A DNA stretch of 64,000 bases from contig NZ_BMGA01000004.1 in NCBI RefSeq assembly GCF_014639535.1, positions 1-64,000 of the forward strand, read 5' to 3'. Positions within the stretch are counted from its first letter, which is position 1; every line of letters begins with the position of its first letter. The notes under the pieces were generated by a model. It did not search any database, was not told where the DNA came from, and worked only from the letters and a program-made list of their open reading frames with translations. The stretch is from Flavobacterium palustre. GTDB taxonomy: Bacteria > Bacteroidota > Bacteroidia > Flavobacteriales > Flavobacteriaceae. The translations under genes were made by a program, and so were the position numbers. Below, piece after piece: positions 22,129 through 61,366 of the stretch.

Positions 22129-22173
22129 AATAGTTTAAAATTTGGAGTATTGTATTTCAAATTTTAAACTATT
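22129..22173 (+). terminator. Terminator of the racemase-like gene, left bracket of the island
   Basis: A 16-bp perfect stem AATAGTTTAAAATTTG (22129-22144) with 22158-22173 and a loop of 13 bases, then a run of Ts to 22180. Reverse-complementing the hairpin at 24776-24821 gives almost the same sequence, including GAGTATTG of the loop. Confidence 0.75.
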
Positions 22174-22231
22174 TTTTTTTATGTGGTTCCCTCCGGTCGG
22201 GCTCAACCTCATCAACTTAAGACTTTTCAAT

Positions 22232-22294
22232 CGTCACTTCGAGTGATTTTTAATCATAATGCCATAGCTTTTTGATTAAAAATAGTATCGAGAA
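22232..22294 (-). repeat. REP-like element, copy B (inverted)
   Basis: CGTCACTTCGAGTG at one end, GTATCGAGAA at the other, with the stem ATTTTTAATCA/TGATTAAAAAT inside. It is in opposite orientation to copies A and C. Confidence 0.55.
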
Positions 22295-22311
22295 GCTTTC
22301 TTACTCTAAAG

Positions 22312-22375
22312 GTTCTCGATACATTTTCTTTTAAAAAAGCTGTCGCATTTTTTAAAGAAAACACTCGAACTGACG
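22312..22375 (+). repeat. REP-like element, copy C
   Basis: GTTCTCGATAC and CACTCGAACTGACG ends around a stem TTTTCTTT.AAAAAA / TTTTTTAAAGAAAA. It is the best preserved of the three copies. Confidence 0.55.
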
Positions 22376-22517
22376 GTAATAAAACATCTAAAAAAACCCT
22401 ACAACCTATTTTGTAGGATATTTTTATATATTTGAAGGATGCTTAATAAGCATAGACAATAGCGAGTATATACAAGTTGTACGTTATTTTATCAGAACTA
22501 AACGAGTAAAAAAATAA

Positions 22518-23453
22518 ATGGAAGAAAGATTTCCTAAATTAAGTAAAATAATAACATTTTTAGCCGATAATTGGCATTGGCTTCTTGGAATTCTTGGAGC
22601 AATATTAATAGCTTGGTCAGGTTATATGCTTGAATCTGCTAGTCCAGATGAAAGCTTATTAATTAAAATGAAAACTAATTGTCAAGATTTATATAGTATT
22701 CTTAATGAAAAACAATATAAAAATGGTAAATGGGTGTTAATTTTAGGAATTTTACTCGATATAATATCCATTGTTTTTGTTAAAATATCTGAAGTTTCAA
22801 AATCTAAAATTTTAATTCAATACAACTCAGATATAGAAACACTAAAAGATAGAATTAATTCATTATCACAAGACAAGAATACACTTGAAGATACTCTAGC
22901 AAAAACTTCAAAAGATTATTATGATTTATTAAATTTTAAATTAGCCAAAATCGCGACAAAAAGACTATCTCTATCTGAAAATGAAAGGATTACTGTTTAC
23001 AGACATAATAAAGATGAAAAATCTTTTGAATTAATTTCTCGATTTTCTAAATCACCTATTTATTGTGAACCAGATCGTAAAATATACAAAGATGACCAAG
23101 GTTTTATAGCAATTGGTTGGCAAAACGGAAAATACACAAGAGATGGCTTTCCAAGATTTGAAAAAAATGAAGCAGCCTACATAACTGCTATTCGAAACGA
23201 GTGTAAGATACCAAAAGATGTTTTAAATAATATTAATATGAAAAGTAGCAGCTTCTATATTAATACAATTAAAGATACTTCGAACGTTTATCCGATTGCT
23301 ATAATAGTAATTGAAAGTAAAAACCCAAAAGGTTTAGATTTTAATGCGATTAATAATTCCTACAAAGAAATCTCAATTGAAATTCAACATGATTTAGAAG
23401 CTCTAAAAAGATTAGAACCAAGTTTAACAATCGCTAAAAATAAAGGGCTATGA
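22518..23453 (+). CDS. Membrane-anchored protein coupled to a Panacea-domain gene
   Basis: A 311-residue protein without a recognised family. It has two N-terminal membrane segments (about 18-38 and 67-88), a coiled coil (about 92-135) and a soluble C-terminal domain (about 150-300) whose alternation of strands and the phrase RITVYRHNKDEKSFELISR weakly recall GAF sensor domains. It overlaps the following Panacea gene by ATGA, so the two are made together. Coding sequence here is visibly more A/T-rich than the flanking purT and racemase-like genes, hinting at acquisition. In Panacea systems the partner of the antitoxin is usually the toxin, so a membrane-acting toxin or effector is a reasonable but unproven guess. 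Confidence 0.65.
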   Translation: MEERFPKLSKIITFLADNWHWLLGILGAILIAWSGYMLESASPDESLLIKMKTNCQDLYSILNEKQYKNGKWVLILGILLDIISIVFVKISEVSKSKILIQYNSDIETLKDRINSLSQDKNTLEDTLAKTSKDYYDLLNFKLAKIATKRLSLSENERITVYRHNKDEKSFELISRFSKSPIYCEPDRKIYKDDQGFIAIGWQNGKYTRDGFPRFEKNEAAYITAIRNECKIPKDVLNNINMKSSSFYINTIKDTSNVYPIAIIVIESKNPKGLDFNAINNSYKEISIEIQHDLEALKRLEPSLTIAKNKGL

Positions 23454-23920
23454 CTAAATTAGAATCTATAGTTACATACATTTATCAAAACTACCCTTTT
23501 CCTTTAGAATTATCCAAAGCTAGGCTAGTAAAAATGATATATTTAGCTGATTGGAAAAATGTTTTATTAACACAACAACAAATTTCTGAAACTAAATGGT
23601 ATTACAATCATTATGGACCATTTGTTAAGACTATAATTGATGATATTAAAAAAAGTGAGTATTTCGAAATATTTTCATCTCAAAATTCATACGGAGAAGA
23701 TAAAGAAATTATTAAATTAAAAGAAAACACACATCCTAATGAATTGAATTTATCTTCTAGTGAAAAGGAAACTATTGATTTCGTGATAAACATTTGTTCT
23801 AAATTAAATTGGAGTGATTTTATAACTTTAGTTTACTCTACATATCCAATTATGAATAGCCCAAAAATGAGTGAATTAAATTTAATAAAATCTGCAAAAG
23901 AATATTTAAAAACAAAATAA
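23450..23920 (+). CDS. Panacea (SocA-like, DUF4065) domain protein
   Basis: A 156-residue protein matching the Panacea/SocA antitoxin domain: LVKMIYLADWK at about 27-37, then TKWYYNHYGPFVKTIIDDI at 48-66, the KLiYfaDw...W.YGPv signature of the family. In known panAT loci the Panacea protein neutralises unrelated toxins encoded beside it. Here the upstream partner is a two-TM protein with a soluble C-terminus, and the ATG lies inside its stop (ATGA). No third gene is coupled. An alternative role is phage-encoded adaptor, as in SocA. Confidence 0.78.
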   Translation: MTKLESIVTYIYQNYPFPLELSKARLVKMIYLADWKNVLLTQQQISETKWYYNHYGPFVKTIIDDIKKSEYFEIFSSQNSYGEDKEIIKLKENTHPNELNLSSSEKETIDFVINICSKLNWSDFITLVYSTYPIMNSPKMSELNLIKSAKEYLKTK

Positions 23921-23933
23921 CTCCCCACTAGTG

Positions 23934-23991
23934 CTCGTTTACAACGAGTACCTACTTACTATAAAAACATAAAACTAAGCGTTTGCAACGC
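23934..23991. repeat. Two tandem mini-palindromes with 3-base loops
   Basis: CTCGTT-TAC-AACGAG (23934-23948) and GCGTT-TGC-AACGC (23979-23991) are 30 bp apart. Paired short hairpins of this kind are what RAYT (TnpA-REP) transposases act on, but no such gene is present. They separate the Panacea pair from the HigB/HigA pair. Confidence 0.45.
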
Positions 23992-24113
23992 GACTCATTA
24001 TACTTAAAATTACTAGTAACCAAAACCTTATAAGTTTTTTTTTCGAAAATTAGAATGACAGACAAGAAACGTTTCAGACAAAAAAACAATTTCACTTTAA
24101 GACAACTTTTTCA

Positions 24114-24121
24114 TATATTTG
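24114..24121 (+). promoter_or_regulatory. -7 box abutting the HigB-like start codon
   Basis: TATATTTG ends only 4 bases before the ATG at 24126. The transcript should begin at or inside the start codon, so the toxin mRNA is probably leaderless. The same 4-base spacing is seen at the HigB gene at 60606. Confidence 0.55.
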
Positions 24122-24125
24122 TGCA

Positions 24126-24470
24126 ATGGATAAACAAAAGATACGCACAATTGTTTTTTACAAAGATTACTTTGAAGAATTCTTTGTAAAGCAGCGTGAT
24201 AAAGTTAAAGACAAAATTATCTGGACCTTAGAGTTAATTCAGGAATTAGAAAGAGTACCGGAAACGTATCTCAAACACATTGAAAATACTGATGGACTTT
24301 ATGAAATTAGAGTGCAACAAGGAAGTGATATTTTTAGAATCTTTTGTTTTTTCGATGAAGGTAAATTAATAATATTAGCAAACGGATTTCAGAAGAAAAC
24401 ACAAAAGGCGCCAAAAAAAGAAATTGAAAAAGCTATTAAAATCAAAAATGAATATGAAAGCGAAAAATAA
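24126..24470 (+). CDS. HigB-like RelE-superfamily toxin
   Basis: A 114-residue protein of the phage-derived Gp49-like/HigB group (DUF891), a RelE-fold ribosome-dependent mRNA endonuclease. Landmarks are KIIWTLELIQELERVPETYLKHIENTDGLYEIRV, given in brief, and the strand-rich SDIFRIFCFFDEGKLIILANGFQKKTQK, which includes the family's FQKK basic patch. It is toxin-first, overlapping its antitoxin gene by 17 bp. A -7 box lies immediately before the ATG. Confidence 0.82.
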   Translation: MDKQKIRTIVFYKDYFEEFFVKQRDKVKDKIIWTLELIQELERVPETYLKHIENTDGLYEIRVQQGSDIFRIFCFFDEGKLIILANGFQKKTQKAPKKEIEKAIKIKNEYESEK

Positions 24471-24756
24471 TATTAAGACACTGGATCAATTCAAGGATAA
24501 ACATTTTGGAAAAACCGGAACAGCTAAACGTGATGAACTGGATGCAGGTTATGAAAACTTCAAAATTGGAGCAATGATTCACGACGCAAGAATTGAAAAA
24601 GGTTTAACACAAGAAGAGCTAGCCGAGAAAGCAGGAACAACAAAATCTTATATTTCTAAAATCGAAAACAATGTAAAAGAAGCAAGATTTTCAACATTAC
24701 AAAAAATTGTTGAACTTGGTTTGGGTGGACATTTAGAATTGTCAATTAAATTATAA
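24454..24756 (+). CDS. HigA-like XRE-family antitoxin
   Basis: A 100-residue antitoxin with an XRE helix-turn-helix in the C-terminal half (IGAMIHDARIEKGLTQEELA and GTTKSYISKIENN). I chose the ATG at 24454 (MKAKNNIKTL); ATGs at 24448 and 24424 are also in frame, all within the toxin gene. The N-terminal 40 residues (FGKTGTAKRDELD) would cap the toxin. It should neutralise the HigB-like toxin and repress the operon. A hairpin terminator starts 20 bp after the stop. Confidence 0.82.
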   Translation: MKAKNNIKTLDQFKDKHFGKTGTAKRDELDAGYENFKIGAMIHDARIEKGLTQEELAEKAGTTKSYISKIENNVKEARFSTLQKIVELGLGGHLELSIKL

Positions 24757-24775
24757 ACCCCCTCCTATTCCTAAA

Positions 24776-24821
24776 AATAGTTTAAAATTTGAAGTGGCAA
24801 TACTCCAAATTTTAAACTATT
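24776..24821. terminator. Terminator of higA, right bracket of the island
   Basis: A 16-bp perfect stem (24776-24791 with 24806-24821) with a 14-base loop, then TTTG. It is essentially the hairpin of 22129-22173 in inverted orientation, so the 2.6-kb accessory segment sits between inverted copies. Confidence 0.72.
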
Positions 24822-24836
24822 TTTGTTTTCGAAATA

Positions 24837-24907
24837 GTCATTGCGAGGAACGGGCGCCATCACATTATTAATTCTCGCTGTGAGATTGCTTCGTTCCTCG
24901 CAATGAC
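24837..24907. repeat. Long imperfect palindrome before purT
   Basis: GTCATTGCGAGGAACG (24837-24852) is perfectly complementary to 24892-24907. The outer arms match the GTCATTGCGAGGAACG-type intergenic repeat known from many bacteria. It lies directly upstream of purT, ending 14 bp before the ATG, so it forms part of the leader or promoter. Confidence 0.6.
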
Positions 24908-24921
24908 AGAAAATCATAAAA

Positions 24922-26082
24922 ATGGCAAAAATCCTTCTTCTCGGCTCAGGCGAACTTGGTAAAGAATTTGTAATCGCTGCGCAACGCATCGGGCAAACCT
25001 TAATTGCGGTTGACAGTTACGAAAATGCTCCTGCTATGCAAGTGGCTCATAATTTTGAAGTGATTAATATGCTAGACGGCGACGCTTTAGATAAGATTGT
25101 AGCCAAACACAATCCCGATTTCATCGTTCCCGAAATAGAAGCCATTAGAACCGAGCGTTTTTACGATTACGAAAAACAGGGAATTACCGTAGTTCCATCG
25201 GCAAAGGCTGCCAACTTTACAATGAACCGAAAAGCCATTCGTGATTTAGCCTCAAAAGAATTAGGATTAAAAACTGCCGAATACCGTTATGCCACCACTG
25301 CCGAAGAGTTGCGAAAAGGCGTACTCGAAGTGGGGATTCCCTGCGTGGTAAAACCATTAATGTCATCGTCAGGAAAAGGACAATCAACTATAAAAACCGA
25401 AGCCGATATTGATAAAGCCTGGGAATATGCCGTAGCCGGTTCCCGTGGTGATGTGGTAGAAGTAATTGTTGAAGCTTTTGTGAAATTCAATTCGGAGATT
25501 ACATTATTGACTGTAACCCAAAATAATAATCATACTTTATTCTGTGCGCCTATTGGGCATCGTCAGGAACGCGGCGATTATCAGGAAAGCTGGCAGCCTG
25601 CACGAATTTCCGATAAAGATTTATACGAAGCACAGGACATGGCTGAAAAAGTAACTGAAGCTTTGGGTGGTGCAGGACTTTTTGGGGTAGAATTTTTCAT
25701 AACTGATGACGGTGTTTATTTTTCGGAATTATCCCCTCGCCCACACGATACCGGAATGGTAACGCTGGCAGGAACACAAAATTTCAACGAATTTGAATTG
25801 CATCTCAGAGCGATTTTGAGTTTGCCTATTTTCGAAATTACACTAGAAAAAGCCGGAGCAAGTGCCGTAATTCTGGCTTTTGAAAACAGTTCGAACCCAA
25901 GTTATAGCGGAATCGAACAAATTGCTGCTTTACCAAAAACTGATTTCAGGATTTTTGGCAAACCCAGCACCAGAGCGTATCGAAGAATGGGAGTGGCATT
26001 AGTAAATGATACTTTAGAAACGCCTATTGAAGAAATAGTAGAACGCGCTAAAAAAGCGGCGAGTTTAGTTACTGTAAACTAA
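24922..26082 (+). CDS. purT: Formate-dependent GAR transformylase PurT
   Basis: An ATP-grasp enzyme that formylates 5-phosphoribosylglycinamide with formate and ATP in purine synthesis. The 386-residue protein is full length. It starts [20 protein letters not shown] (preATP-grasp loop), then has [14 protein letters not shown] as the ATP loop and [22 protein letters not shown] as the Mg/ATP-binding end, all diagnostic of PurT. It needs no folate, unlike PurN. No other purine genes are nearby. Its upstream region is occupied by a REP-like palindrome and the end of the accessory island. Confidence 0.95.
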
Positions 26083-26372
26083 TTTTTCTTTTTTGCTTGA
26101 TCAAAAAAGAAACAAAAAATTACTCCAAGATTTTATTTTAATTGGATTCCGTGAATCTTCGATTTCAAGTCTTACGCTTCCTCGTCGGTCAAATTAGTTT
26201 TCGAATGCTAAAAGAAAAGAACTCGCCCCGAAAGCTTTCGGGACTCAAACAGCTTTTCTTTTTACGCATTCTTCAAACATTTGACTCTCGACTGCGAAAG
26301 CTAAGGACAAAGTAATCTGCGGAAATTTGCGTAATCTGCGGTTAAAAAGCAATTTTGCAAAAGAAATAAGTC
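26083..26372. repeat. Intergenic repeat debris after purT
   Basis: 290 bp without a gene. It holds a perfect palindrome CCCGAAAGCTTTCGGG (26227-26242) and the doublet ATCTGCGGAAATTTGCGTAATCTGCGG-like run near 26313-26342 (described, not quoted in full), plus T-rich/A-rich complementary stretches around 26083-26122. These look like worn copies of Flavobacterium intergenic repeats; no promoter was identified. Confidence 0.4.
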
Positions 26373-27239
26373 TTAGTCTTTTTTCAATAATCTAAAATTT
26401 GTAGGTGTCATTGCGGTGTGTTTTTTAAACATACGCGTAAAATAAGAGTAATCTTCATAGCCTAAAGCAAAAGCGATTTCGTTAACCGTCCAGTTTTTAT
26501 CGAGCAACATTCGCTTGGCTTCGAGAATAATTCTGTCAACAATCACTTCGGTGGTTGTTTTTTTTAGGATTTCGTTGCAAATTCTGTTTAAGTGCTTCAA
26601 AGTGATATTCAATTCTGAGGCGTAAAAGGCTGCGGATTTTTCTTCTTTGTATTTTTTCTCTAAAAGCTGTTCCAAATTTTTAATTTTCACATTATACGAA
26701 TGGGTTTCGTGAATATGAATTTTGTTGTATTTACGAGCCAATTCAATATGAATAATGTCCAACAGGTTCATTATTTTGTCCCGTTGCAATAGTTTGTGTG
26801 TTTGCGTTTCCGCTATCAAACTTTCGAAATAAGGTAAAACCGATTTTATTTCCTGCTCATCCAATACAATTTCGGGACTATTTTGAATTGAAAAATAAAA
26901 GGGATAATCTTCAATCCTCTTATTTCCAAAATACAAATTGTACATTTCGGCAGAATAAAAAACAATAAATCCTTCAATATCTTCCGATAAAACCCAATGG
27001 TGCATTTGACCGGGTTGTAAAACGAAAGCACTTCCCGAATGAATAGCAAAACGATCAAAATCGACCTCATGTACGCCTGAACCATTGGTAAACAAAACCA
27101 ATAAGTAAAAATTATGACGATGGGGTTTTTCTACAAAACTGTGATTCAGTAAGTGATTTTTAAACGTATTGACATACAAATCACTATTGACCGAATTGCA
27201 ATTAAATTGTTCGATACTGTAAACAGGATACTTTTTCAT
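26373..27239 (-). CDS. AraC-family transcriptional regulator
   Basis: A 288-residue regulator with an N-terminal AraC_binding cupin-like domain (PHRHNFYLLVLFTNGSGVHEV, here only partly quoted as a landmark) and a C-terminal pair of helix-turn-helix motifs (about 190-285), ending with NEIAFALGYEDYSYFTRMFK and the usual TPTNFR. It is divergent from the DUF983 gene at 27331. Its target is not evident. It is a different subfamily from the AraC gene at 19974. Confidence 0.87.
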   Translation of the reverse strand: MKKYPVYSIEQFNCNSVNSDLYVNTFKNHLLNHSFVEKPHRHNFYLLVLFTNGSGVHEVDFDRFAIHSGSAFVLQPGQMHHWVLSEDIEGFIVFYSAEMYNLYFGNKRIEDYPFYFSIQNSPEIVLDEQEIKSVLPYFESLIAETQTHKLLQRDKIMNLLDIIHIELARKYNKIHIHETHSYNVKIKNLEQLLEKKYKEEKSAAFYASELNITLKHLNRICNEILKKTTTEVIVDRIILEAKRMLLDKNWTVNEIAFALGYEDYSYFTRMFKKHTAMTPTNFRLLKKD

Positions 27240-27305
27240 TCGAAAAATGTCTTTTTTGTCCTATAATAAGCGAATATACAAAATAGCCAACACATGGATA
27301 ATAAA

Positions 27306-27313
27306 TACCTTTG
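27306..27313 (+). promoter_or_regulatory. -7 box of the DUF983 gene
   Basis: TACCTTTG, 17 bp upstream of the ATG at 27331. Confidence 0.5.
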
Positions 27314-27330
27314 AATAAAAAATAAGAGTT

Positions 27331-27693
27331 ATGTCAAATTCACTTCTTCACATACTAAACAACGATTGTCCTCATTGTCATCAGGGAAAAGTTTTTAATG
27401 AAAAATCTATCTTTTTCAAATTCAGTTTTCCTAAAATGAACGAATATTGTCCGCATTGTCATTATAAATTCAAAAAAGAGCCGGGTTATTTTTTTGGTGC
27501 TATGTATGTTAGTTATGGATTAACCGTAGCACAGGGAATTGCGACTTATGTTATTGCCCGTTTTTTCTTCGAAGAAACCTTCGACCTGAGGATCATCCCA
27601 ATTATTATGACCGTAATTATTCTTCTGGCTACATTCAACATCCGATTGTCGAGACTTCTATGGATTTATATGTTTAAGAATTATTCGAGTTAA
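27331..27693 (+). CDS. DUF983 membrane protein
   Basis: A 120-residue protein with two zinc-ribbon CxxC pairs in the N-terminal half (CPHCHQGKVF near residue 13 and CPHCHYKFKKEPGYFFGA near 38) and two membrane helices (about 57-75 and 83-103). This matches DUF983, of unknown function. It is a single gene with its own -7 box, followed by a GC-rich repeat. Confidence 0.82.
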   Translation: MSNSLLHILNNDCPHCHQGKVFNEKSIFFKFSFPKMNEYCPHCHYKFKKEPGYFFGAMYVSYGLTVAQGIATYVIARFFFEETFDLRIIPIIMTVIILLATFNIRLSRLLWIYMFKNYSS

Positions 27694-27740
27694 CAAAGAA
27701 CAAACTGTTCAGAATGCGATTATTGTTTTAGAAAAAAACC

Positions 27741-27774
27741 ACCCCGCCCGTTGGGCACCCCTCCAAAGGAGGGG
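27741..27774. repeat. GC-rich double hairpin repeat
   Basis: Two small hairpins in tandem: GCCC-GTT-GGGC (27746-27756) and CCCCTCC-AAA-GGAGGGG (27758-27774). Strikingly GC-rich against the surrounding sequence; this CACCCCTCCAAAGGAGGGG pattern recurs between genes in related genomes as far as I recall. Confidence 0.5.
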
Positions 27775-27811
27775 AAGTCGCGTAGTTTTACCTCTTTTGG
27801 AGAAAAAAAAG

Positions 27812-27852
27812 AAAGACCGCTTACCCGTCTATTCGACAGGCAAGCAGTCTTT
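27812..27852 (-). terminator. Terminator of the susCD operon
   Basis: An imperfect hairpin (AAAGACYGCTTR arms) ends 37 bp past the susD stop; on the minus strand it is followed by TTCTTTTTTTT. Confidence 0.7.
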
Positions 27853-27888
27853 ACTACTAACCAAACTAACACTAAAAAAAACTAACTT

Positions 27889-29298
27889 CTATTTATAAGC
27901 TTCATTTTGAGTAATCACATCCGGATTTTGGTTAATTACTAAAAATGGAATTGGTAATAATAACTCTTCCTCAGTAATAGTGATATTCTTACTGCTGTTT
28001 TTAATCACCTGAATAGCTCTTCCGGTTCTGATTAAATCAAACCAACGATGGAATTCAGAAGCAAATTCTACCTGAGCTTCATGTTCCAAAGCAAGAGCTA
28101 CCGTATTATACTGAGCCGGATAACCTACAGCTTGATAAGCCGGTAAACCCACACGGGCACGAACTTCGTTCAGGTATTTTGGATCTGAAGTTGCTTCTGT
28201 CAACATCAAAAGAACATCGGCATAACGAAGAATGATAAAATTATTATTGGCAGCTTCTCTTAATCCGGCAACCGGAGCAGCCGCATCTTTCCATTTAATT
28301 GGAAATTTCACATCGACAAATGAGTTATTGGCCGTTGTATAACCATTTTGAATGGAAATCGATCTCCTTGGATCTCCTGTTTCATAAGCATTCCATAAAT
28401 CATCCGTAATCTGATTGAATCCTCCACCCCAGGCGGTAACCACTCTGTTATCAACCGGTGTAAACATAGCCCAATACAAACTGTAAGGACTAGACACACC
28501 ACCTTTGTACTGAATTTCAAAAATAGAAGATGCACCATTTTTCTTAGTTAAATTCCATAAATCAGCATAAGGTACCAAGCTGAACTTGCCATATACTTTT
28601 AACAAAGTTTCAGCTGCTTTTGGTTTATTCCCCATAGTCAGATAAACCTTTCCAAGTAAAGTATTAGCTGCTTCCTGACTGGCCGCACCTACAAAACGCT
28701 GACTTGTTTTTACCGGTAATTTCGCTGCTGCAAAATCAAGATCTTCAACAATTTGAGCATAAACCTGCTCTTTTGGCGTGCGTCCCTGAGCATAAGAACC
28801 TGCTACACTTAACGGAGTTGTAACCAATGGCACATCGCCCCAGGCACGAACCATATCAAAATAATACAAAGCACGTAAAAACTTAGCTTCACCAATTAAA
28901 GCATCTCTACTGGCAAAATCCAATTTTTCGGCACTGACAATAATATTATTTACAATATAAATTGCCTTATAATAATTGTTCCAAAAATTATATACTAATT
29001 CATTGTCAACACTCATTGTGTGCAATTCAAAACTTTCATAGTCCTGAATTCTTCCGGCCGCATTATCGCTATAGGCATTGTCGGACATTAACTCACCATA
29101 AAACGAAGGTAAACTTTCAGGACCATACAAGGTATAAAGCGAATTATAAGCCGACCACAAAGCGGTTTCAATATCTTTTTGAGATTTATAAAACTCTACT
29201 TCATTAGCATTTGAAATAGGTGCTTTATCTAAAAAATCTCCACTGCATCCTATTAAGAATAAGTTGCAAAAAATCATGATATATATTATTTTTTTCAT
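27889..29298 (-). CDS. SusD/RagB-family outer-membrane lipoprotein
   Basis: A surface lipoprotein that captures a nutrient for its SusC partner. The 469-residue protein has a lipobox LFLIGC (C18), the conserved GDFLDKAP start, TPR-like helices with AKFLRALYYFDMVRAWGDVP, and the C-terminal RWFDLIRTG motif of the family. It lies 32 bp downstream of susC. There is no glycoside hydrolase, protease or sulfatase beside it, so the ligand is unknown. Confidence 0.93.
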   Translation of the reverse strand: MKKIIYIMIFCNLFLIGCSGDFLDKAPISNANEVEFYKSQKDIETALWSAYNSLYTLYGPESLPSFYGELMSDNAYSDNAAGRIQDYESFELHTMSVDNELVYNFWNNYYKAIYIVNNIIVSAEKLDFASRDALIGEAKFLRALYYFDMVRAWGDVPLVTTPLSVAGSYAQGRTPKEQVYAQIVEDLDFAAAKLPVKTSQRFVGAASQEAANTLLGKVYLTMGNKPKAAETLLKVYGKFSLVPYADLWNLTKKNGASSIFEIQYKGGVSSPYSLYWAMFTPVDNRVVTAWGGGFNQITDDLWNAYETGDPRRSISIQNGYTTANNSFVDVKFPIKWKDAAAPVAGLREAANNNFIILRYADVLLMLTEATSDPKYLNEVRARVGLPAYQAVGYPAQYNTVALALEHEAQVEFASEFHRWFDLIRTGRAIQVIKNSSKNITITEEELLLPIPFLVINQNPDVITQNEAYK

Positions 29299-29330
29299 TT
29301 TCTTACATTTTAAATGATTGGTCTAATTCT

Positions 29331-42735: not shown

Positions 42736-42767
42736 TTAGCAAACTGTTTTAAATTTTTCATAAATAG

Positions 42768-42801
42768 ATCCTCGTAAACAAAAGTTTACGGGGATTTTTT
42801 T
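42768..42801 (+). terminator. Terminator of fabD
   Basis: ATCCTCGTAAAC (42768-42779) pairs with 42784-42795 and is followed by seven Ts. Confidence 0.85.
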
Positions 42802-42808
42802 ATATTTG
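42801..42808 (+). promoter_or_regulatory. -7 box of the small lipoprotein gene
   Basis: TATATTTG, overlapping the end of the fabD terminator T-run, 41 bp before the ATG. Confidence 0.5.
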
Positions 42809-42849: not shown

Positions 42850-43101
42850 ATGAAAAGAACAATTTTAGCAGCAGCTTTCATGCTGGTTGCAATGGCTTCC
42901 TGCCAGGACAAGACAAAAGACAAAATCGAAGATGCCAAAGAAGCTGTTGGAGCTGAAGTAGAACAAAAAATGGATACTGTAAATAAAAAAGTAGAAAAAG
43001 CCATAGATTCTACACAATCAAAAACAGGCAAAATCCTTGAAAAAGGAGCAGAAAAACTTAACGAAGCTGCCGATAAACTAAAAGAAGCAGCTAAAAAGTA
43101 A
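42850..43101 (+). CDS. Small Lys/Glu/Ala-rich lipoprotein
   Basis: An 83-residue predicted lipoprotein with lipobox VAMASC (C18). The mature part is a continuous amphipathic helix rich in Lys, Glu and Ala (KDKIEDAKEAVGAEVEQKMD), resembling late-embryogenesis-type or apolipoprotein-like repeats found in Bacteroidota small lipoproteins. Function unknown; probably an envelope structural or stress protein. It is a single gene with its own -7 box. Confidence 0.7.
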   Translation: MKRTILAAAFMLVAMASCQDKTKDKIEDAKEAVGAEVEQKMDTVNKKVEKAIDSTQSKTGKILEKGAEKLNEAADKLKEAAKK

Positions 43102-43104
43102 TCT

Positions 43105-43140
43105 AACAAAAAATCCCAAACTATCAATTTGGGATTTTTT
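43105..43140. terminator. Bidirectional terminator, left bracket of toxin-antitoxin pair 2
   Basis: AAATCCCAAA (43111-43120) pairs with TTTGGGATTT (43128-43137) around a 7-base loop, with T-runs in both directions. Its first 26 bases (43105-43130) recur exactly at 43686-43711. Confidence 0.85.
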
Positions 43141-43456
43141 ATAAATCTTTCGCTTCTTCACAATGATTATTTAAAATAGAAGTAATCAAATATTTATTAT
43201 GTTGTTTTTCAAAAAATACAAACCAGGTTGTTCTGTTATTTGCCTTATAAAAAACATAATTTGAACCTAAATATTTTATTTTCTGTGGAGTTCTTTTGTG
43301 AGGGAAACTTTTTATTTCCATGAAAATAAAATCTACAATCTTATCAACATAAAGTTGTGCATTTTCAGCATAACTGAAATATTCCTCTTTGAATAGCAAA
43401 AAAACTAATTCATCGAAATATTCTAAAACATTATTCTTAAAGATTATTTTTTCCAA
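43139..43456 (-). CDS. RelE/ParE-superfamily toxin (putative)
   Basis: A 105-residue protein that resembles RelE/ParE toxins in size, charge and layout: an N-terminal helix pair (about 8-50), then basic strands (PHKRTPQKIKYLGSNYVFYKA) and a final NKYLITSILNNH strand typical of the fold. A precise subfamily is not recognised. It overlaps the upstream small gene by 13 bp (antitoxin first), the common order for RelBE/ParDE. The pair lies between exact 26-bp direct repeats. Confidence 0.65.
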   Translation of the reverse strand: MEKIIFKNNVLEYFDELVFLLFKEEYFSYAENAQLYVDKIVDFIFMEIKSFPHKRTPQKIKYLGSNYVFYKANNRTTWFVFFEKQHNKYLITSILNNHCEEAKDL

Positions 43457-43641
43457 GGATATGCCTGTATACGTTTGTGCATTTCAGCCTTAAACTCTTC
43501 TAACGTGTATCCTTTTTCAAATTCGGCATCAAAATCAAAAGTTGCATGATCAACACCTTGTTGTTTCGTTTTAGAAATATCGTAAGCAGCAACAGTTTCT
43601 TCTACTTTATCTATTTTAGATTTTTTCCCTTTTGCATTCAT
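43444..43641 (-). CDS. Putative antitoxin partner
   Basis: A 65-residue protein, MNAKGKKSKIDKVEETVAAY at the start, with an acidic central stretch (DFDAEFEKGYTLEEFKAEMH). It has no recognised DNA-binding motif. Its size, overlap with the toxin gene and location support an antitoxin; the family is not known to me. Confidence 0.55.
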   Translation of the reverse strand: MNAKGKKSKIDKVEETVAAYDISKTKQQGVDHATFDFDAEFEKGYTLEEFKAEMHKRIQAYPWKK

Positions 43642-43685: not shown

Positions 43686-43733
43686 AACAAAAAATCCCAA
43701 ACTATCAATTTTGACAATTTGAGATTTTTACTT
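43686..43733 (-). terminator. Terminator of the NTF2-like gene, right bracket of toxin-antitoxin pair 2
   Basis: It contains the second copy of the 26-bp repeat (43686-43711). AAAATC.CAAA pairs imperfectly with TTTG.GATTTT, and on the minus strand a T-run follows. Confidence 0.7.
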
Positions 43734-51764: not shown

Positions 51765-51783
51765 TTTTTAAATTATAAAACAC

Positions 51784-51820
51784 AAAAAAGCTTCCTTTTT
51801 CTAAATTGGAAGCTTTTTTT
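51784..51820 (+). terminator. Terminator of the DUF1573 gene
   Basis: AAAAAAGCTTCC (51784-51795) pairs with GGAAGCTTTTTT (51808-51819); T-run at the end. Confidence 0.85.
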
Positions 51821-51845
51821 ATTCAAATTAATTTCATTATTAAAA

Positions 51846-52382: not shown

Positions 52383-52423
52383 TTTTTTTTTTGTTTATTC
52401 CTAAAAAATTATACTTTTACTAA

Positions 52424-54595: not shown

Positions 54596-54596
54596 C

Positions 54597-55733
54597 TTAA
54601 CTATTGATTTTCTTCTGAATTTCCTCCAAAATAAAAAGATAATCCAACGGATTGTTTACAAAATCTCTATTGGTCACATCAATAATCAAAACATTCAAAT
54701 CGGTTTGTGAATTCAGGTAATCCAAATAAGCACTGTTGATTTTATCAAGATATTCGGCTGAAATTTCCTGTTCGTAATCTCTGCCACGTTTTTTAATATT
54801 TTCTAATAATCGATCCGGATGCTGTAACAAATACACGTACAAATCCGGTTTTGGGATTTCTTTATAAATAATATCAAATAGGTTTTTATACAATTGATAT
54901 TCTTCAGCCTCCAAAGTAACCTTAGCAAAAATCAACGATTTAAAAACATGATAATCGGCAACTAACCCGTCTTTTTCAAAATCCACCGAAGCTATATTCT
55001 CTGAAATTTGCTGATAGCGATCTACTAAAAAAGACAACTCCAGCGGAAAAGCATATCGTTCCTGATTTTTATAAAATTTTTCTAAAAAAGAATTCTCTGC
55101 AAAACGTTCAAAAAGAGTTTTAGCACCAAAATCCTGTGCTATTTTGGCTGCCAAAGTAGTTTTTCCGGCACCGATATTTCCTTCTAAAGCAATATAATTT
55201 GCCTTAGCAAAAGAAACTTTTTGCAACGGATTTTCTATATCAGCTACTGCTACACAAACGCCTTCATCGGAACAAATCTCAATTAATTCCGAAATATTTT
55301 TTTGTAAAACAGGATGTGTCCAATTTATTTTCAAATCCTGAAAAGGAAGCAACACAAACTTTCGATCCTGCATCAACGGATGCGGAATATTCAAATCATC
55401 CGTATCGATAATTTCCTCATCAAAAGCAATTAAGTCAATATCAATAATTCTCGACTGGTATCCTCCGGCATTTTGCCGAATACGTCCTAATTGCTTTTCG
55501 ATTGTTAAAGCCTTCAAAAGTACCATCTCAGCCTTATGGAAAGTATGCAAAACCAAAGCACAATTGTAAAAAGCATCACTGTCAAAACCCCAGGCGGCGG
55601 TTTCATAAACCTGAGAAACCTGAATTACCGTTCCAATTTCCTGATGTATCATTGCGATACATTCTTTTATTGCTTCAAGTCGGTCGCCTTGATTACTGCC
55701 AATAGATAAAATAACCTGATGTTGTGCTTTCAT
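54597..55733 (-). CDS. folK: FolK-deoxynucleoside kinase fusion
   Basis: A 378-residue two-domain enzyme. Residues 1-160 are 6-hydroxymethyl-dihydropterin pyrophosphokinase (FolK: ILSIGSNQGDRLEAI, then IDIDLIAFDE and IPHPLMQDRKFVLLPF), a folate-pathway step. Residues about 180-378 are a deoxynucleoside kinase (P-loop EGNIGAGKTT, then DRYQQISENI and an LID-type RGRDYEQEI). The start is the ATG at 55733; the GTG at 55742 is less likely. The fusion of folate and nucleotide-salvage domains recurs in Flavobacteriia as far as I recall. Confidence 0.9.
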   Translation of the reverse strand: MKAQHQVILSIGSNQGDRLEAIKECIAMIHQEIGTVIQVSQVYETAAWGFDSDAFYNCALVLHTFHKAEMVLLKALTIEKQLGRIRQNAGGYQSRIIDIDLIAFDEEIIDTDDLNIPHPLMQDRKFVLLPFQDLKINWTHPVLQKNISELIEICSDEGVCVAVADIENPLQKVSFAKANYIALEGNIGAGKTTLAAKIAQDFGAKTLFERFAENSFLEKFYKNQERYAFPLELSFLVDRYQQISENIASVDFEKDGLVADYHVFKSLIFAKVTLEAEEYQLYKNLFDIIYKEIPKPDLYVYLLQHPDRLLENIKKRGRDYEQEISAEYLDKINSAYLDYLNSQTDLNVLIIDVTNRDFVNNPLDYLFILEEIQKKINS

Positions 55734-55772
55734 ATTAAGCACAAATTAACTAAACAATTTTAGAAATAGCAA

Positions 55773-55780
55773 TATATTTG
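55773..55780 (+). promoter_or_regulatory. -7 box of sppA
   Basis: TATATTTG, 72 bp before the sppA ATG. Confidence 0.5.
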
Positions 55781-55852
55781 CACATAGCACCGAATTCTGG
55801 TACAATAAAACTATAATCCGGATGTTTTTTTTCTAAATCAAAGAATACTATT

Positions 55853-57613
55853 ATGAAGTTTTTAAGCAATGTTATCGCTACAGTTGTAGGTCTGTTTGTA
55901 TTTCTGATGCTGTTTTTTTTCGGAATTGTTTTCCTTGCTGCTATTTTTGGCGGTGAAACGGAAGGAGAAGCTCTTAAAGCCAATTCTGTCATCGAATTAA
56001 ATCTTGAAGATGTACGATATGATTATGCCGGCAAATATAAAGATCCGTGGATGAGTTTCTTTTCTGAAGAAAAAAACATCGGTCTTTCGGATGTTATCAA
56101 TGCCATTGATGTTGCTTCGATAGACGATAACATCAAAGGAATTTCGATTTTAAACAACAATTCCAATTTAGGAATGGCGCAAAGTAAAGAGCTGAGAAAC
56201 GCTTTGGAAAATTTCAAAAAATCGGGCAAGTTTGTCATGGCTTACGCCAATAGTTATTCGCAAAAAGAATATTATCTAAATTCAGTAGCCAATACCATTT
56301 ATTTGAATCCTGTAGGCGAATTGGACTTTAAAGGGCTTTCTTCAGAAATTATGTTTTTTAAAGATTTACAGGAAAAAACAGGTGTGAAAATGGAAGTTAT
56401 TCGACATGGAAAATACAAAAGCGCCGTTGAACCTTTCTTAGAAAATAAAATGAGTGATGCTAACAGAGAACAAACTACAGCATTACTGCAATCCATTTGG
56501 AATTCTGTTTGTACGGACATTTCGAAAAGTCGAAAAATTACAACCGAAAAATTAAACGAAATTGCCAACGGTTTACTGGCCCGAACACCCCAAATGGCAA
56601 AACAACAAAAACTCATCGACTACATTGCTTATGAAGATATGTATCATAATGACATCAAAAAAGCTTTAAAAGTAAGTACTGACAAAGATTACAACAAAAT
56701 TTCTATTAGCGATTACACCCATAAAATGACCAGTACTTCGGTAATTTCTGAAACCGAAGACAAGATTGCCGTTATTTTTGCTCAGGGCGAAATCCAAAGT
56801 GGCGAAGGCGATGTCAATACTATTGGCGAAGGCTCCATGCGCCGTTCTTTACAGGAAGCAAGAAAAGACAAAAAAGTAAAAGCCATCGTTTTGAGAATTG
56901 ACAGTCCGGGAGGAAATGCATTGACTTCTGATTTGATTTGGAGAGAAGTCGAATTGACTAAAAGAGTAAAACCTGTGGTGGTTTCAATGGGGAATTATGC
57001 TGCTTCAGGAGGTTATTATATGGCTTGTAATGCCAATACTATTTTTGCAGAAAACAACACGATTACAGGTTCTATAGGTGTTTTTGGGATTTTGCCCAAT
57101 TTTAATCAGTTGACTAAAAAAATTGGCATTAATATCGAACAGGTGAAAACACATCAAAATTCGGCCGAATACAGTCCTTTTGTACCTATGGACGAAAACT
57201 TCAAAGCGGTTACACTGGAAAGCATTGAACACATTTATAAAACATTTGTAAGTCATGTGGCTCAAGGTCGAAAGATGAGTTTTGCAGAAGTAGATTCTAT
57301 CGCACAAGGAAGAGTTTGGTCGGGTTCGGAAGCACTAAAAATTGGTCTTGTCGATAAAATTGGCGGATTGAATGCAGCTATAACTGAAGCTGCCCGTTTA
57401 TCTAAAACACAACATTACGACATTACAAACTACCCTGAATACGAAAAAGATTTTGATGAAATATTTTCTAAATTACCTTTTGGAAGCTCAAAAGAAAACA
57501 TCATAAAGGAAGAAATTGGAAACGACAACTACCAACTTTTACAACAAGTAAAAAAGTTCCAATCCCGAAAAGGAGTTCAGGCCATGATGCCATTTGAGAT
57601 TTCAATTTATTAA
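55853..57613 (+). CDS. sppA: Signal peptide peptidase SppA, 67K type
   Basis: A membrane-bound serine protease that degrades cleaved signal peptides. The 586-residue protein has an N-terminal anchor (about 7-32) and tandem peptidase S49 domains. The second contains the nucleophile in SMGNYAASGGYYMACNANTIF and the first the lysine region RHGKYKSAVEPFLENKMSD (quoted in part), the Ser/Lys dyad of SppA. It is divergent from folK-dNK and carries its own terminator. Confidence 0.93.
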   Translation: MKFLSNVIATVVGLFVFLMLFFFGIVFLAAIFGGETEGEALKANSVIELNLEDVRYDYAGKYKDPWMSFFSEEKNIGLSDVINAIDVASIDDNIKGISILNNNSNLGMAQSKELRNALENFKKSGKFVMAYANSYSQKEYYLNSVANTIYLNPVGELDFKGLSSEIMFFKDLQEKTGVKMEVIRHGKYKSAVEPFLENKMSDANREQTTALLQSIWNSVCTDISKSRKITTEKLNEIANGLLARTPQMAKQQKLIDYIAYEDMYHNDIKKALKVSTDKDYNKISISDYTHKMTSTSVISETEDKIAVIFAQGEIQSGEGDVNTIGEGSMRRSLQEARKDKKVKAIVLRIDSPGGNALTSDLIWREVELTKRVKPVVVSMGNYAASGGYYMACNANTIFAENNTITGSIGVFGILPNFNQLTKKIGINIEQVKTHQNSAEYSPFVPMDENFKAVTLESIEHIYKTFVSHVAQGRKMSFAEVDSIAQGRVWSGSEALKIGLVDKIGGLNAAITEAARLSKTQHYDITNYPEYEKDFDEIFSKLPFGSSKENIIKEEIGNDNYQLLQQVKKFQSRKGVQAMMPFEISIY

Positions 57614-57623
57614 AAACATTTTG

Positions 57624-57655
57624 AACCGTTTAAGACCAACTTAAACGGTTTTTTT
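57624..57655 (+). terminator. Terminator of sppA
   Basis: AACCGTTTAAG (57624-57634) pairs with CTTAAACGGTT (57640-57650), then five Ts. Confidence 0.85.
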
Positions 57656-57770
57656 ATCTCTTAGCAGCAGCTAAAAATTGTAAGATATTGTGAAAATATT
57701 ATAAACTACTTAGCTGCTAATCTTTTATTTTTGTAATAGAATACCTTTTATAAAGACAAAATCCATCGCC

Positions 57771-60431
57771 ATGTTAAAAAAAACAATCATAATTACAGGA
57801 AGCATCATCCTTTTATTTGCAGGATCATTATTTGCAATTCCTTATTTTTTTAAGGATCAGATAAAAGCTAAAATCACTGATGCCATTAATCGAAAAGTGG
57901 ATGCCAAAGTAAGTTTTGCCGATGCCGATTTGAGTTTGTTTAAAAACTTTCCCAATGCGAATGTGACCATCGAAAAATTAGCTATCATTAACAAAGCACC
58001 TTTTGAAGGTGATACTTTAGTTGCATTAGGCGAACTGAATTTAAAAATGTCAATCAAAGAACTTTTTAAAGGCGATAATGAGCCCATAAATATTGACGGG
58101 ATCAGTTCTAAAGATGGTTTAATCAATATTATTTTCAACAAAGATGGAGTTGGAAATTATGATATTGCGATAAAAGACGATTCAGAAACCAAAGAGGATT
58201 CAAAAAGCAAACCGTTGGCTTTGAACATTCAGAATTACAAACTGGAAAATTTTCAATTCCGCTATTTTGACGAAAGTTCGAAAATAAAAATGCTAATTGA
58301 CAGTTTGAACCACGAAGGAACCGGAGATTTTGCAGCTTCCAAATTAGATTTAAACACCAAATCAACAGCCAAAATTAGCCTGGATATGGACAAGGTGAAT
58401 TATATGAACAATGTAGCCCTGACGCTGGATGCCATTCTGGGAATTGATTTAGAAAAAAGCAAATATACTTTCAAGGAAAACAAGGCTTTAATCAATCAAT
58501 TACCTTTGGAATTTGACGGATTTATTCAATTAGTTGATGCCGGTCAGGAATACGATTTGAAATTTAAAACACCAACATCTTCATTTAAAAATTTCCTTGG
58601 AGTGATTCCTGCCGCTTATGCAGCTAATCTGGACAATGTAAAAACTACAGGTGATTTCACCGTAGCCGGTTTCGCCAAAGGATTGTATTCGGATACAACG
58701 GTGCCAAAATTCAATATTGAAATTGCTTCTAACAACGCTTCTTTTCAGTATCCTAATTTGCCTAAATCGGTTCAAAACATTGTTATAGACACTAAAATCA
58801 TCAATCAAACCGGAATTTTAAATGATACTTATGTCAACTTAGACAAACTTTCTTTCCGCATTGATCAGGATGTTTTTAATGCCAAAGCCAATATTAAAAA
58901 TGTTACCCAAAATGCTCTTGTAGATGCCATGTTGAAAGGAACCATCAACTTAGGAAATTTATCGAAAGCCTATCCTGTTAAACTCGACAAACCTTTAAGC
59001 GGAATTTTAAAAGCCGATGTAACTACTCAATTCGACATGCAATCGGTAGAAAAAAGCCAGTATCAAAACATTAAAAACGCCGGAATAATGAGTCTGTCAG
59101 GATTTAAATACACCGACGAAAACGGCAAATCAATGAACATTAGCACAGCCGAAATTGCCTTTAATCCGTCAAGAGTAAACCTGAAACAATTTAAAGCCTA
59201 CACAGGAAAAAGCGATCTGAGTATTACCGGAGTTTTAGAAAATTTCTATGGCTTTGTATTTAAAAATCAAAACCTACAGGGAAATTTCAATCTGACTTCC
59301 AATCAATTAGCGGTCAATGATTTTGTTACTTCTGAAGAAAAACCAAAAACAGCAACAACAAATACAACAACTGAGAGCACTAAAGCTACCAAAACAGAAG
59401 CCATGAAAATCCCTGCTTATCTGGATTGCACGCTTACCGCAAAGGCCAATACGGTATTGTATGATAATTTAACATTGAAAAATGTTTCGGGTAAATTAAT
59501 CGTTAAAGACGAAAAACTAACGATGGAAAAGATTAAAACCAACATTTTTGGAGGTTCGATAGGTTTGTCCGGAGCGGTTTCTACCAAAGGAAAAACACCA
59601 ACATTTGATATGGATTTGGGATTAAACCAGGTGGATATTGCGCAATCATTCACTCAGTTAGACATGCTTAAAAAACTGGCTCCCATTGCCGGAATTGTGA
59701 ATGGAAAAATCAACTCCACTATCAAATTAAACGGAAACTTGGATGCACATGAACTTACTCCCGATTTAAAAACCATTACCGGAGATTTATTAGGTCAATT
59801 TCTATCTACCACTATCAATTCCAGTAATTCGACGCTGTTGACGGCTTTAACTTCGAATATTAAATTCTTAGACCTGAACAAAATCAATTTAAACGATTTG
59901 AAAGCTGCCATTACTTTCAAAGACGGAAAAGTAAACGTAAAACCTTTTAATATCAAATATCAGGATATTCAGGCAACTATTGGCGGAACACATGGTTTTG
60001 ATCAGAGTATGAATTACAATATCAAATTCAATGTTCCTGCTAAATATTTAGGTACAGAAGCCAATGCGTTAATTTCAAAATTATCTGCTGCCGATGCCGC
60101 CAAACTGGAAAATATTCCTGTCAATGCACTTTTAAGCGGTAGTTTTTCAAAACCTAAAATCACCACTGATTTAAAAGCTGCTGCAACCAATTTGACCAAT
60201 CAACTAATCCAACAACAAAAACAAAAATTAGTCAGCAAAGGAAACGCAGCCCTGACCGACATTATCAATAAAAACAAAAAAGCCGGAGATACTACAAAAA
60301 CAGTCATTCCTGCAACCAAAGCTGAAGCGCAAACGAAAGCTAAAGAAGAGGTAAAAGCAAAAGCAACCGATTTATTAAACAATCTCTTTAACAAAAAGAA
60401 AAAAGTAGCGGATACTACAAAAACGAATTAG
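57771..60431 (+). CDS. AsmA-family protein
   Basis: An 886-residue AsmA-like protein: an N-terminal membrane anchor (about 5-27) followed by a very long beta-strand-rich region and the C-terminal AsmA domain (about 560-790). Low-complexity Thr/Lys patches occur at about 525-545 and 820-886. AsmA proteins form bridges for phospholipid movement between the membranes. Length and domain order are normal for Flavobacteriia. The terminator after it is repeated after the HigBA pair. Confidence 0.88.
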   Translation: MLKKTIIITGSIILLFAGSLFAIPYFFKDQIKAKITDAINRKVDAKVSFADADLSLFKNFPNANVTIEKLAIINKAPFEGDTLVALGELNLKMSIKELFKGDNEPINIDGISSKDGLINIIFNKDGVGNYDIAIKDDSETKEDSKSKPLALNIQNYKLENFQFRYFDESSKIKMLIDSLNHEGTGDFAASKLDLNTKSTAKISLDMDKVNYMNNVALTLDAILGIDLEKSKYTFKENKALINQLPLEFDGFIQLVDAGQEYDLKFKTPTSSFKNFLGVIPAAYAANLDNVKTTGDFTVAGFAKGLYSDTTVPKFNIEIASNNASFQYPNLPKSVQNIVIDTKIINQTGILNDTYVNLDKLSFRIDQDVFNAKANIKNVTQNALVDAMLKGTINLGNLSKAYPVKLDKPLSGILKADVTTQFDMQSVEKSQYQNIKNAGIMSLSGFKYTDENGKSMNISTAEIAFNPSRVNLKQFKAYTGKSDLSITGVLENFYGFVFKNQNLQGNFNLTSNQLAVNDFVTSEEKPKTATTNTTTESTKATKTEAMKIPAYLDCTLTAKANTVLYDNLTLKNVSGKLIVKDEKLTMEKIKTNIFGGSIGLSGAVSTKGKTPTFDMDLGLNQVDIAQSFTQLDMLKKLAPIAGIVNGKINSTIKLNGNLDAHELTPDLKTITGDLLGQFLSTTINSSNSTLLTALTSNIKFLDLNKINLNDLKAAITFKDGKVNVKPFNIKYQDIQATIGGTHGFDQSMNYNIKFNVPAKYLGTEANALISKLSAADAAKLENIPVNALLSGSFSKPKITTDLKAAATNLTNQLIQQQKQKLVSKGNAALTDIINKNKKAGDTTKTVIPATKAEAQTKAKEEVKAKATDLLNNLFNKKKKVADTTKTN

Positions 60432-60444
60432 TTATACTCTTTTT

Positions 60445-60495
60445 AAACAAACAAGCCGTCTCAAATAGTATTTGAGACGGCTTGTTTGTTTTCTC
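60445..60495 (+). terminator. Terminator of the AsmA-like gene, left bracket of HigBA pair 3
   Basis: A 21-bp perfect stem (60445-60465 with 60471-60491) around loop TAGTA, then TTCTC. The core CAAACAAGCCGTCTCAAA and its complement recur at 61315-61357. Confidence 0.88.
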
Positions 60496-60570
60496 TGATA
60501 AAAAAGGCAAAATGATTACTATTAACTAAAAACATCAACAGTTTTAAAAAATTTCGACATTAAAACAAAG

Positions 60571-60601
60571 TTTGCAAATTGAAAACTTTTAATTACTTTT
60601 G
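60571..60601 (+). promoter_or_regulatory. HigB promoter abutting the start codon
   Basis: TTTG (60571-60574), 19 bp, TACTTTTG (60594-60601). The -7 box ends four bases before the ATG at 60606, predicting a leaderless toxin mRNA. Confidence 0.65.
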
Positions 60602-60605
60602 TTAA

Positions 60606-60935
60606 ATGAAAATCCTTGTAAAGAAAACGGTTTTATTTTACATCAAAAAGTATCCAATGGCAGCAACACAATTGCTAATTTGGTACAATGAATTTTCAAA
60701 ACTGGAACTTAACAACTTCAATGAACTCAAAAGAGTCTATGGAAATGCAAGTATTGTAAATAACAACCGTGTAGTTTTCAACATCAAAGGAAATGATTTT
60801 CGATTAGTCATCTCAGTTAATTTTCTACAAAGTGCGTGTTATGTAATTTGGTTTGGAACACACAAAGAATATGACAAAATAAATGTAGAAACTATTGCAT
60901 TTGACACCACAATTCTAACAGATAAAAAGATTTAA
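60606..60935 (+). CDS. higB: HigB-family toxin
   Basis: A 109-residue HigB-type mRNA interferase (the HigB_toxin family, distinct from the Gp49-like one at 24126): KKTVLFYIKKYPMAATQLLI near the start, KRVYGNASIVNNNRVVFNIK and YVIWFGTHKEYDKINVETIA, the conserved WFGTHxEYDKI signature. Toxin-first order, two bases before its antitoxin. Likely leaderless. Confidence 0.9.
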   Translation: MKILVKKTVLFYIKKYPMAATQLLIWYNEFSKLELNNFNELKRVYGNASIVNNNRVVFNIKGNDFRLVISVNFLQSACYVIWFGTHKEYDKINVETIAFDTTILTDKKI

Positions 60936-60937
60936 TT

Positions 60938-61297
60938 ATGAACTGGAAAGTATTAAAAACAGAAGACGATTACAATAAGGCTTCAATACGAATGATGGAA
61001 ATCTTTAATGCCGAACCCAACTCAGCTGAAAGTGATGAATTGGATTTATTGATTGTTTTGATAAAAGATTATGATGAAAAACATTATCAATTACCTGAGC
61101 TCGATGCCTTAGAAGTAATTAAATATAAAATGGAGGAAATGGGAATAAAAGCTAAAGATCTTGAACCAATTATAGGAAGTAAAGGTCATGTTTCGGCAAT
61201 TCTTTCAGGGAAAAGAGAAATTACTTTAAAAATGGCTCAAAAGCTAAAAAACTATTTTAGCATTCCTGCCGAAGTATTTCTGCATAACGCGAGTTAA
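60938..61297 (+). CDS. higA: HigA-family antitoxin
   Basis: A 119-residue HigA antitoxin with a long N-terminal acidic part (DDYNKASIRMMEIFNAEP) and an HTH at about 68-110 (GIKAKDLEPIIGSKGHVSAI, LSGKREITLKMAQKLKNYF). It binds HigB and autoregulates the operon. It starts two bases after higB. Confidence 0.9.
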   Translation: MNWKVLKTEDDYNKASIRMMEIFNAEPNSAESDELDLLIVLIKDYDEKHYQLPELDALEVIKYKMEEMGIKAKDLEPIIGSKGHVSAILSGKREITLKMAQKLKNYFSIPAEVFLHNAS

Positions 61298-61314
61298 AAA
61301 TTTTTCTTTTTATA

Positions 61315-61366
61315 CAAACAAGCCGTCTCAAAATAGAACTTTGAGACGGCTTGTTTGTTTTTTTTC
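61315..61366. terminator. Terminator of higA, right bracket of HigBA pair 3
   Basis: An 18-bp perfect stem (61315-61332 with 61340-61357), loop of seven, then eight Ts. It is nearly the same sequence as the terminator at 60445-60491, in the same orientation, and also faces the convergent DUF2797 gene. Confidence 0.88.

Follow-up and report, generated by a model that had tools for sequence, protein, structure and literature searches.

Toxin-antitoxin (TA) gene pairs in a 64,000-nucleotide stretch of the Flavobacterium palustre genome (contig NZ_BMGA01000004.1, positions 1 to 64,000; hereafter the window) lie between copies of a flanking piece of DNA, and flank repeats of this kind are far commoner around HigBA pairs of the genus than around control genes. 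We consider these brackets, with a confidence that stops a little short of even, to be footprints of insertion-duplication by homologous recombination. By what route TA pairs pass from chromosome to chromosome when they bring no mobility genes is a long-standing question; a readable scar of entry at about a third of the loci of one family, if that is what the repeats are, would open the route to sequence comparison and to bench tests. The window belongs to a genome of 3.97 Mb (G000, included in all counts of genus genomes) and to its contig C4 (302,596 bp), which was scanned whole for strong intergenic hairpins. Families were assigned with Pfam and NCBIfam profiles at an E-value of 0.001 and with PADLOC at 0.01.

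An initial annotation of the window had reported three TA loci, each between two matching hairpins, and the hairpin scan together with alignment confirmed the three pairs. At site S3 a gene for the toxin HigB (60606..60935, plus strand; PF09907, E = 6.3e-26) adjoins one for the antitoxin HigA (60938..61297, plus strand; PF01381, with TIGR02607 below cut-off). The HigB domain and the adjoining helix-turn-helix (HTH) antitoxin both score above cut-off, so that the pair is a predicted HigBA type II TA system. Its near-identical hairpins (60445..60491, behind a gene at 57771-60431 that we label AsmA-like, and 61314..61358) share an exact stem pattern that occurs only at these two places in the genome. 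Site S2 is marked by an exact 26-bp direct repeat (43105..43130 and 43686..43711, plus strand) around two minus-strand open reading frames (ORFs) without family, one toxin-like (43139..43456, 105 amino acids) and one antitoxin-like (43444..43641, 65 amino acids). The left copy of the repeat sits in a clean terminator-like hairpin, the right copy in a longer imperfect hairpin of the same type (X); the contig scan missed S2 because this right hairpin is imperfect and goes unreported, and the repeat was detected separately. The S2 pair had been called RelE-like, a label that was not confirmed: it has no match in Pfam, NCBIfam or PADLOC at the above thresholds, the matches of the toxin-like ORF are all sub-threshold, and E-values up to 1 bring in unrelated weak matches, no profile or structure comparison having been run. 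At site S1 an island lies between hairpins at 22128..22174 and 24772..24825. Its plus-strand genes encode a 311-amino-acid protein without family (22518..23453; sub-threshold Pfam matches only), a SocA/Panacea-domain protein (23450..23920; PF13274, E = 1.1e-16), a toxin-like Gp49 (RelE/HigB-type) protein (24126..24470; PF05973, E = 6.9e-24, with TIGR02683 below cut-off) and an antitoxin-like HTH_3 protein (24454..24756; PF01381). The S1 hairpin copies are near-identical and align best when inverted (48.5 vs 41.5 direct), palindromes matching either way. As had been noted, the three sites have hairpins of mutually unrelated sequence, and no transposase was recognised among the ORFs between the copies in the window, the 311-amino-acid ORF of S1 being familyless.

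The contig carries 66 strong intergenic hairpins. Two of the 74 pairs within 6 kb of each other scored at least 30, and these were S1 and S3; none of the 2071 distant pairs did. In 1.5 Mb of G000 and the congener G051, 10 of 347 adjacent hairpin pairs scored at least 20, vs 13 of 10195 sampled distant pairs. Flanking sequences were compared with a strict score (match +1, mismatch -2, gap -4/-1; threshold 24) over 400 bp in a scan of the same 1.5 Mb and over 500 bp in a genus-wide survey of loci. In the scan, direct flank repeats were found around 13 of 961 single genes, including two from the S2 and S3 pairs, and around 3 of 114 two-gene units, all three of them toxin-antitoxin. A HigBA-like pair of G051 (2090043-2090725) was rejected as a further case; it failed the strict flank test and its bracket also encloses the neighbouring gene.

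The survey of the genus gave the clearest count. From 66 HigBA matches 63 loci were examined and 62 evaluated (L133 had no usable match; G116, G069 and G026 were left out), and 22 of the 62 have direct flank repeats (12/29 and 10/33 in two batches), or 19 of 49 independent sites. When flanks from different HigBA loci were paired instead, 4 of 3782 mismatched pairs reached the threshold. The loci thus have unrelated sequences, which rules out one shared mobile-element end. A transposon with terminal inverted repeats was not found either, since the ends differ by locus and no transposase was recognised in the brackets of the window. Of 37 Gp49 loci examined among the matches, 36 were evaluated and 8 have repeats, two of these being one site; this count is weaker, with 9 of 1225 cross pairs reaching the threshold (maximum score 95). 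For ParE, 20 of 34 matches were taken into the flank test and repeats occur at 3, of which L264 has a second ParE copy alongside. Among the controls, direct repeats were found at 0/29 loci of the acetyltransferase family PF13673, 0/29 of DUF2797, 0/17 of the S2 neighbour gene and 2/29 of PF05635 (one a tandem-like array, one repetitive); allowing either orientation raises PF05635 to 6/29, the four inverted cases being repetitive-looking. One locus was dropped from each of PF13673, DUF2797 and PF05635.

Related genomes without a module have a single hairpin at two of the sites, as the initial annotation had led one to expect. At S1, G051 has both flanking genes and one hairpin with no insert between, and at S2 the pair is missing and one hairpin present in G051, in G031 and, by alignment, in G320. 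Other S1 sites are occupied differently: in G031 the right hairpin is intact, the left one broken and three other ORFs lie inside, and in G005 two hairpins surround another insert (coverage of S1 in G320 was partial). At S3, among the 30 nearest loci, HigBA occurs in G000 and G051 only, in both between two hairpins. The left S3 hairpin is kept with the end of the AsmA-like gene in G051, G180 and G320, and the right one is found in G000 and G051. G031 and G139 have no insert and unrelated hairpins there, and G074 and G342 have other genes behind an unrelated hairpin. An empty S3 site with a single S3-type hairpin and no pair was sought among the relatives and none was established; G180, tried as one, has other ORFs behind its left hairpin, and as the DUF2797 gene was not reached in the stretch it was not counted.

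S2 has a history of its own. The antitoxin-like gene has matches in 36 of 150 genus genomes, its own included, the two genes of the pair remain adjacent in congeners, and by coordinate reading S2 relatives occupy the same neighbourhood in many of these, the distance to the DUF2797 gene being about 18-27 kb there and in the window alike. In the window a second hairpin type, Y (42760..42803, reported by the hairpin scan), lies beyond a small lipoprotein-like gene (42850..43101, plus strand; NCBIfam lipoprotein matches below cut-off), and X stands additionally at the junction of this gene with the toxin-like gene. Among 28 S2-family loci besides those of the window and G005, we found by eye X on the antitoxin side in 13, Y on the toxin side, behind the toxin gene, in 18, and both in 8. 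In G005 the pair lies between two full hairpins, with X on both sides as in G000. The S2 toxins of the window and G005 agree at 57 percent, and that of the window agrees with other congeners at up to 68 percent, a divergence that fits exchange at a fixed site without proving it. At one locus of G138 (L196) the S2 toxin, antitoxin and lipoprotein genes are each matched twice, by diverged sequences.

Two further observations concern S1. A left end that contains a promoter-like run (TTTTGTAGGATATTTTTATATATTTG or a near variant; window 22180-22440) precedes unrelated genes at S1 in G000, G031 and G005. By blastn its element at 22399..22434 (plus strand; promoter label by eye) is common to the G031 and G005 inserts. 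Left ends of the same type also stand at S3 of G342 and G074 (loci L082, L085, L407 and L409 compared at S1/S3), as if it were a platform for cassettes without an integrase. In the G005 insert (L085, about 3523-3680) an attC-like sequence, recognised by eye, lies behind the inserted gene and reads GGCGTTTGGC ... GCCAAGCGCC ... GTTAGC.

The duplicated piece is not the same at all loci. It is a terminator-like hairpin at S1-S3, L142, L148 and L357; at L345, L338 and L150 it comprises a host-gene 3' end together with the terminator, 94-282 bp in all. Repeats that look like integron attC sites occur at L127, L128, L337, L339, L347 and L163; these labels were given by eye, and the same inspection recognised no such repeat at S2 or S3. 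The remaining repeats are plain intergenic sequence or ill-defined. At L345 the 282-bp repeat comprises the last 132 bp of the host gene, its stop and the terminator, the second copy being headless. The copies differ at 7/132 coding and 29/151 noncoding positions and all six changed codons (6/6) are synonymous, the random expectation being a synonymous fraction of about 0.19; by our arithmetic from this value, six of six would come about by chance with a probability of about 5e-5 were every change on the fragment, and of about 0.007 were half of them there. Because the headless copy shows synonymous changes only, this divergence suggests that two intact alleles were brought together, one with imported homologous DNA, rather than that a target was freshly duplicated; alternatively the intact copy may have been replaced later. 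At L338, 8 of 11 changed codons are synonymous.

On the insertion-duplication reading, DNA with a gene pair and a homologous flank piece (the terminator, sometimes with the host-gene 3' end) would enter a related genome. The incoming DNA would probably be a circle and would join by one crossover in the homologous piece, so that the host gene is followed by the piece, the module and the piece again. A crossover between these repeats would take the module out and leave one copy, which would produce the single-hairpin sites, and the excised circle could enter that site anew in another genome. Terminators and the 3' ends of genes would be preferred places, since a second copy of either does no damage. 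Addiction would then act on the inserts: those that kill on loss would stay and non-TA inserts would be let go, so that TA pairs are often seen bracketed. The different contents within one S1 bracket count for such a process. The first arrival of a module at a new locus falls outside this account. In a bolder form, which we think improbable, chromosomal TA pairs would be enzyme-free mobile modules that leave as circles, carry as their sole address one copy of a terminator or 3' end, re-enter by one crossover and are selected through addiction. The duplicated flank would then be ticket and scar at once, and restriction-modification genes would move through the same cycle.

Several results weigh against insertion-duplication or limit its reach. 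The initial annotation had all three TA loci bracketed, which is true within the window; three other TA loci of the same genome, the Gp49-type loci C1:340180 and C1:797146 and the ParE locus C5:145991, have no matching flanks. Matching hairpins also surround non-TA genes, for example a 95-amino-acid gene at C1:248345 and a 191-amino-acid gene in G051, and the S1 insert of G005 is a non-TA gene (DUF4365), which weakens the idea of a bracket specific to TA. The fairest control is a survey of the 28 indels between G000 and G051, 27 of them testable (the remaining one, at gap 132575, is an artefact of the alignment around a TA-like pair): flank repeats occur at 2/2 TA-holding vs 4/25 non-TA indels, a weaker contrast than with the other controls. 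As the 4 of 25 are repeat-flanked too, the addiction part depends on few cases. In G320, found later, HigBA stands at S3 with the left hairpin and the right one is absent. Only 2 of 30 S2-family loci, those of the window and G005, have matching direct flanks (3/30 in any orientation); since flanks are unmatched in most S2 congeners, loss between X copies explains the empty S2 sites as well as entry does. The empty S2 sites may have lost the pair between two X copies, or the pair may have been lost and then regained, which would be a warning that any single-copy 'empty' site may be a loss. With 26-55 bp the pieces of S1-S3 are on the short side for RecA recombination, attC-like repeats need another mechanism than homologous insertion-duplication, and neither a circle nor a donor was seen. 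None of 29 other ortholog loci (three had no match) comes as close to either L345 copy as the other copy does. At L150 one change is synonymous and four are nonsynonymous, three of these being stops, and the second copy appears to decay freely, as after plain local duplication. With regard to an origin of the copies from the recipient's own target, L345 points to import and L150 to local copying. The interpretation in the initial annotation can be upheld in part only, its claim that TA cassettes enter at terminators being unsupported as worded. The single-hairpin empty sites (S1 in G051; S2 in G051, G031 and G320) and the HigBA excess favour the interpretation, and the DUF4365 gene in the G005 bracket, the equally fitting loss at S2, the S3 site of G320 and the many non-terminator repeats at other HigBA loci do not.

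A true target-site duplication, in the literal sense of the term insertion with long target duplication (see below), made by an enzyme or by break repair with a stagger of 25-280 bp and followed by replacement of one copy through recombination between strains, would leave a similar picture, and we regard it as unlikely. It agrees with the one copy kept at the empty S1 and S2 sites, with a repeat length that differs by locus and with L150, which resembles a decaying local copy, but the synonymous changes at L345 (6/6) and L338 (8/11) misfit a drifting fragment unless the intact copy was later replaced. Terminators might also be copied without movement of any gene, one hairpin overwriting its neighbour through template switching or gene conversion, with occasional loss of the gene between them and the TA pair as a bystander. 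This too seems doubtful to us, although a good deal at S2 speaks for it: relatives stay in one congener neighbourhood, X and Y recur around them in the numbers given above and X flanks both sides in G000 and G005. Geneless adjacent hairpins match in G051 (2250066/2250224 and 2331272/2331447), and G320 is without the right S3 copy. Against this, the repeats that reach into 3' coding ends (L345, L338, L150) far exceed the length of a hairpin, and the HigBA excess is strong.

In E. coli, the element e14 brings a functional 3' end to icd. Site-specific integration on this pattern, by non-autonomous elements that use a gene 3' end or a terminator as att site and an integrase acting in trans, would account for the look of the 3'-end-plus-terminator repeats and their synonymous differences, and the attC-like repeats at several HigBA/Gp49 loci are in its favour. 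It is nevertheless quite unlikely in our view: the repeats of different loci are mostly unrelated, so that many recombinases would be needed, and at 14 loci examined no enclosed ORF is long enough for an integrase. Least credible is coincidence, in which terminators of the genus merely draw on common stems. A query made of the S3 gene end plus hairpin does match 122 of 399 genomes, most of the listed ones through the GCCGTCTC-type hairpin part, but the near and far hairpin counts at score 30 disfavour a chance meeting of common terminators, and the matched and mismatched HigBA flanks differ likewise. Insertion-duplication remains the reading that we prefer.

Outside the three sites, the genes next to S1 are mandelate-racemase/enolase-like (20966-22054; PF13378/PF02746) on the left and purT-like (24922-26082, by family match) on the right. 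Behind purT lies a 28-bp hairpin, TTTCTTTTTTGCTTGATCAAAAAAGAAA (window 26085-26112), found in identical form 104 kb away at C4 129869 (L093), and possibly a repeat family. The 191-amino-acid gene mentioned above, which is familyless, lies at 17057-17771 of the window; near-identical short hairpins flank its G051 copy and similar short repeats its G000 copy. Elsewhere on the contig a gene of 521 amino acids (L097, about 1174-2912; C4 205174-206912) stands between copies of AAAAAATCCATTTCTTATTTCTTAG, the right one with a nested hairpin in its loop, and G051 has other DNA at this place.

In Helicobacter pylori, restriction-modification genes are reportedly flanked by long direct repeats. A literature search, with subscription papers mostly outside it, found no description of TA pairs bracketed by duplicated terminators. 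Even so, the view of the initial annotation that such entry is undescribed was too strong: insertion with long target duplication was named as a mechanism of gene mobility in 2000, in the title of Nobusato, Uchiyama, Ohashi and Kobayashi (Gene 259:99-108), and is cited for restriction-modification systems. As far as title and citations describe it, that mechanism is alike in its long duplicated target and in concerning another kind of addiction gene. Its mark of direct host-DNA repeats, tens to hundreds of bp long, on both sides is seen at S2, at S3 and at the 22 of 62 HigBA loci, S1 being best aligned inverted, and one copy in an insert-free relative is seen at S1 and S2. Here, the genes are TA pairs in another phylum, the piece is in many cases a terminator, alone or joined to a gene 3' end, and one synonymous-only divergence points to imported DNA. 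In the minimal mobile element of Neisseria, differing cassettes lie between two conserved genes and come in by homologous recombination (PMC3082526). S1 conforms to this with its differing cassettes between the same conserved genes (G000, empty G051, G005, G031), but the definition given there names no repeats, whereas here copies of a flank piece bracket the insert. The dif modules of Acinetobacter plasmids, small, movable and often TA, lie between pdif sites (PMC13141974); as described there they share one kind of Xer site, unlike the unrelated sequences of each locus here, which are apparently chromosomal. TA pairs also stabilise superintegrons and other integrated elements, addiction holding recombination-prone DNA, according to the part of a review that treats them (PMC7167474), whereas the single modules described here appear to hold only themselves. 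What is new, then, is the bracketing of TA pairs by duplicated flank, and the known kind to which it compares is insertion with long target duplication of restriction-modification genes; if our reading is right, TA and restriction-modification genes would be tied by a shared way of moving.

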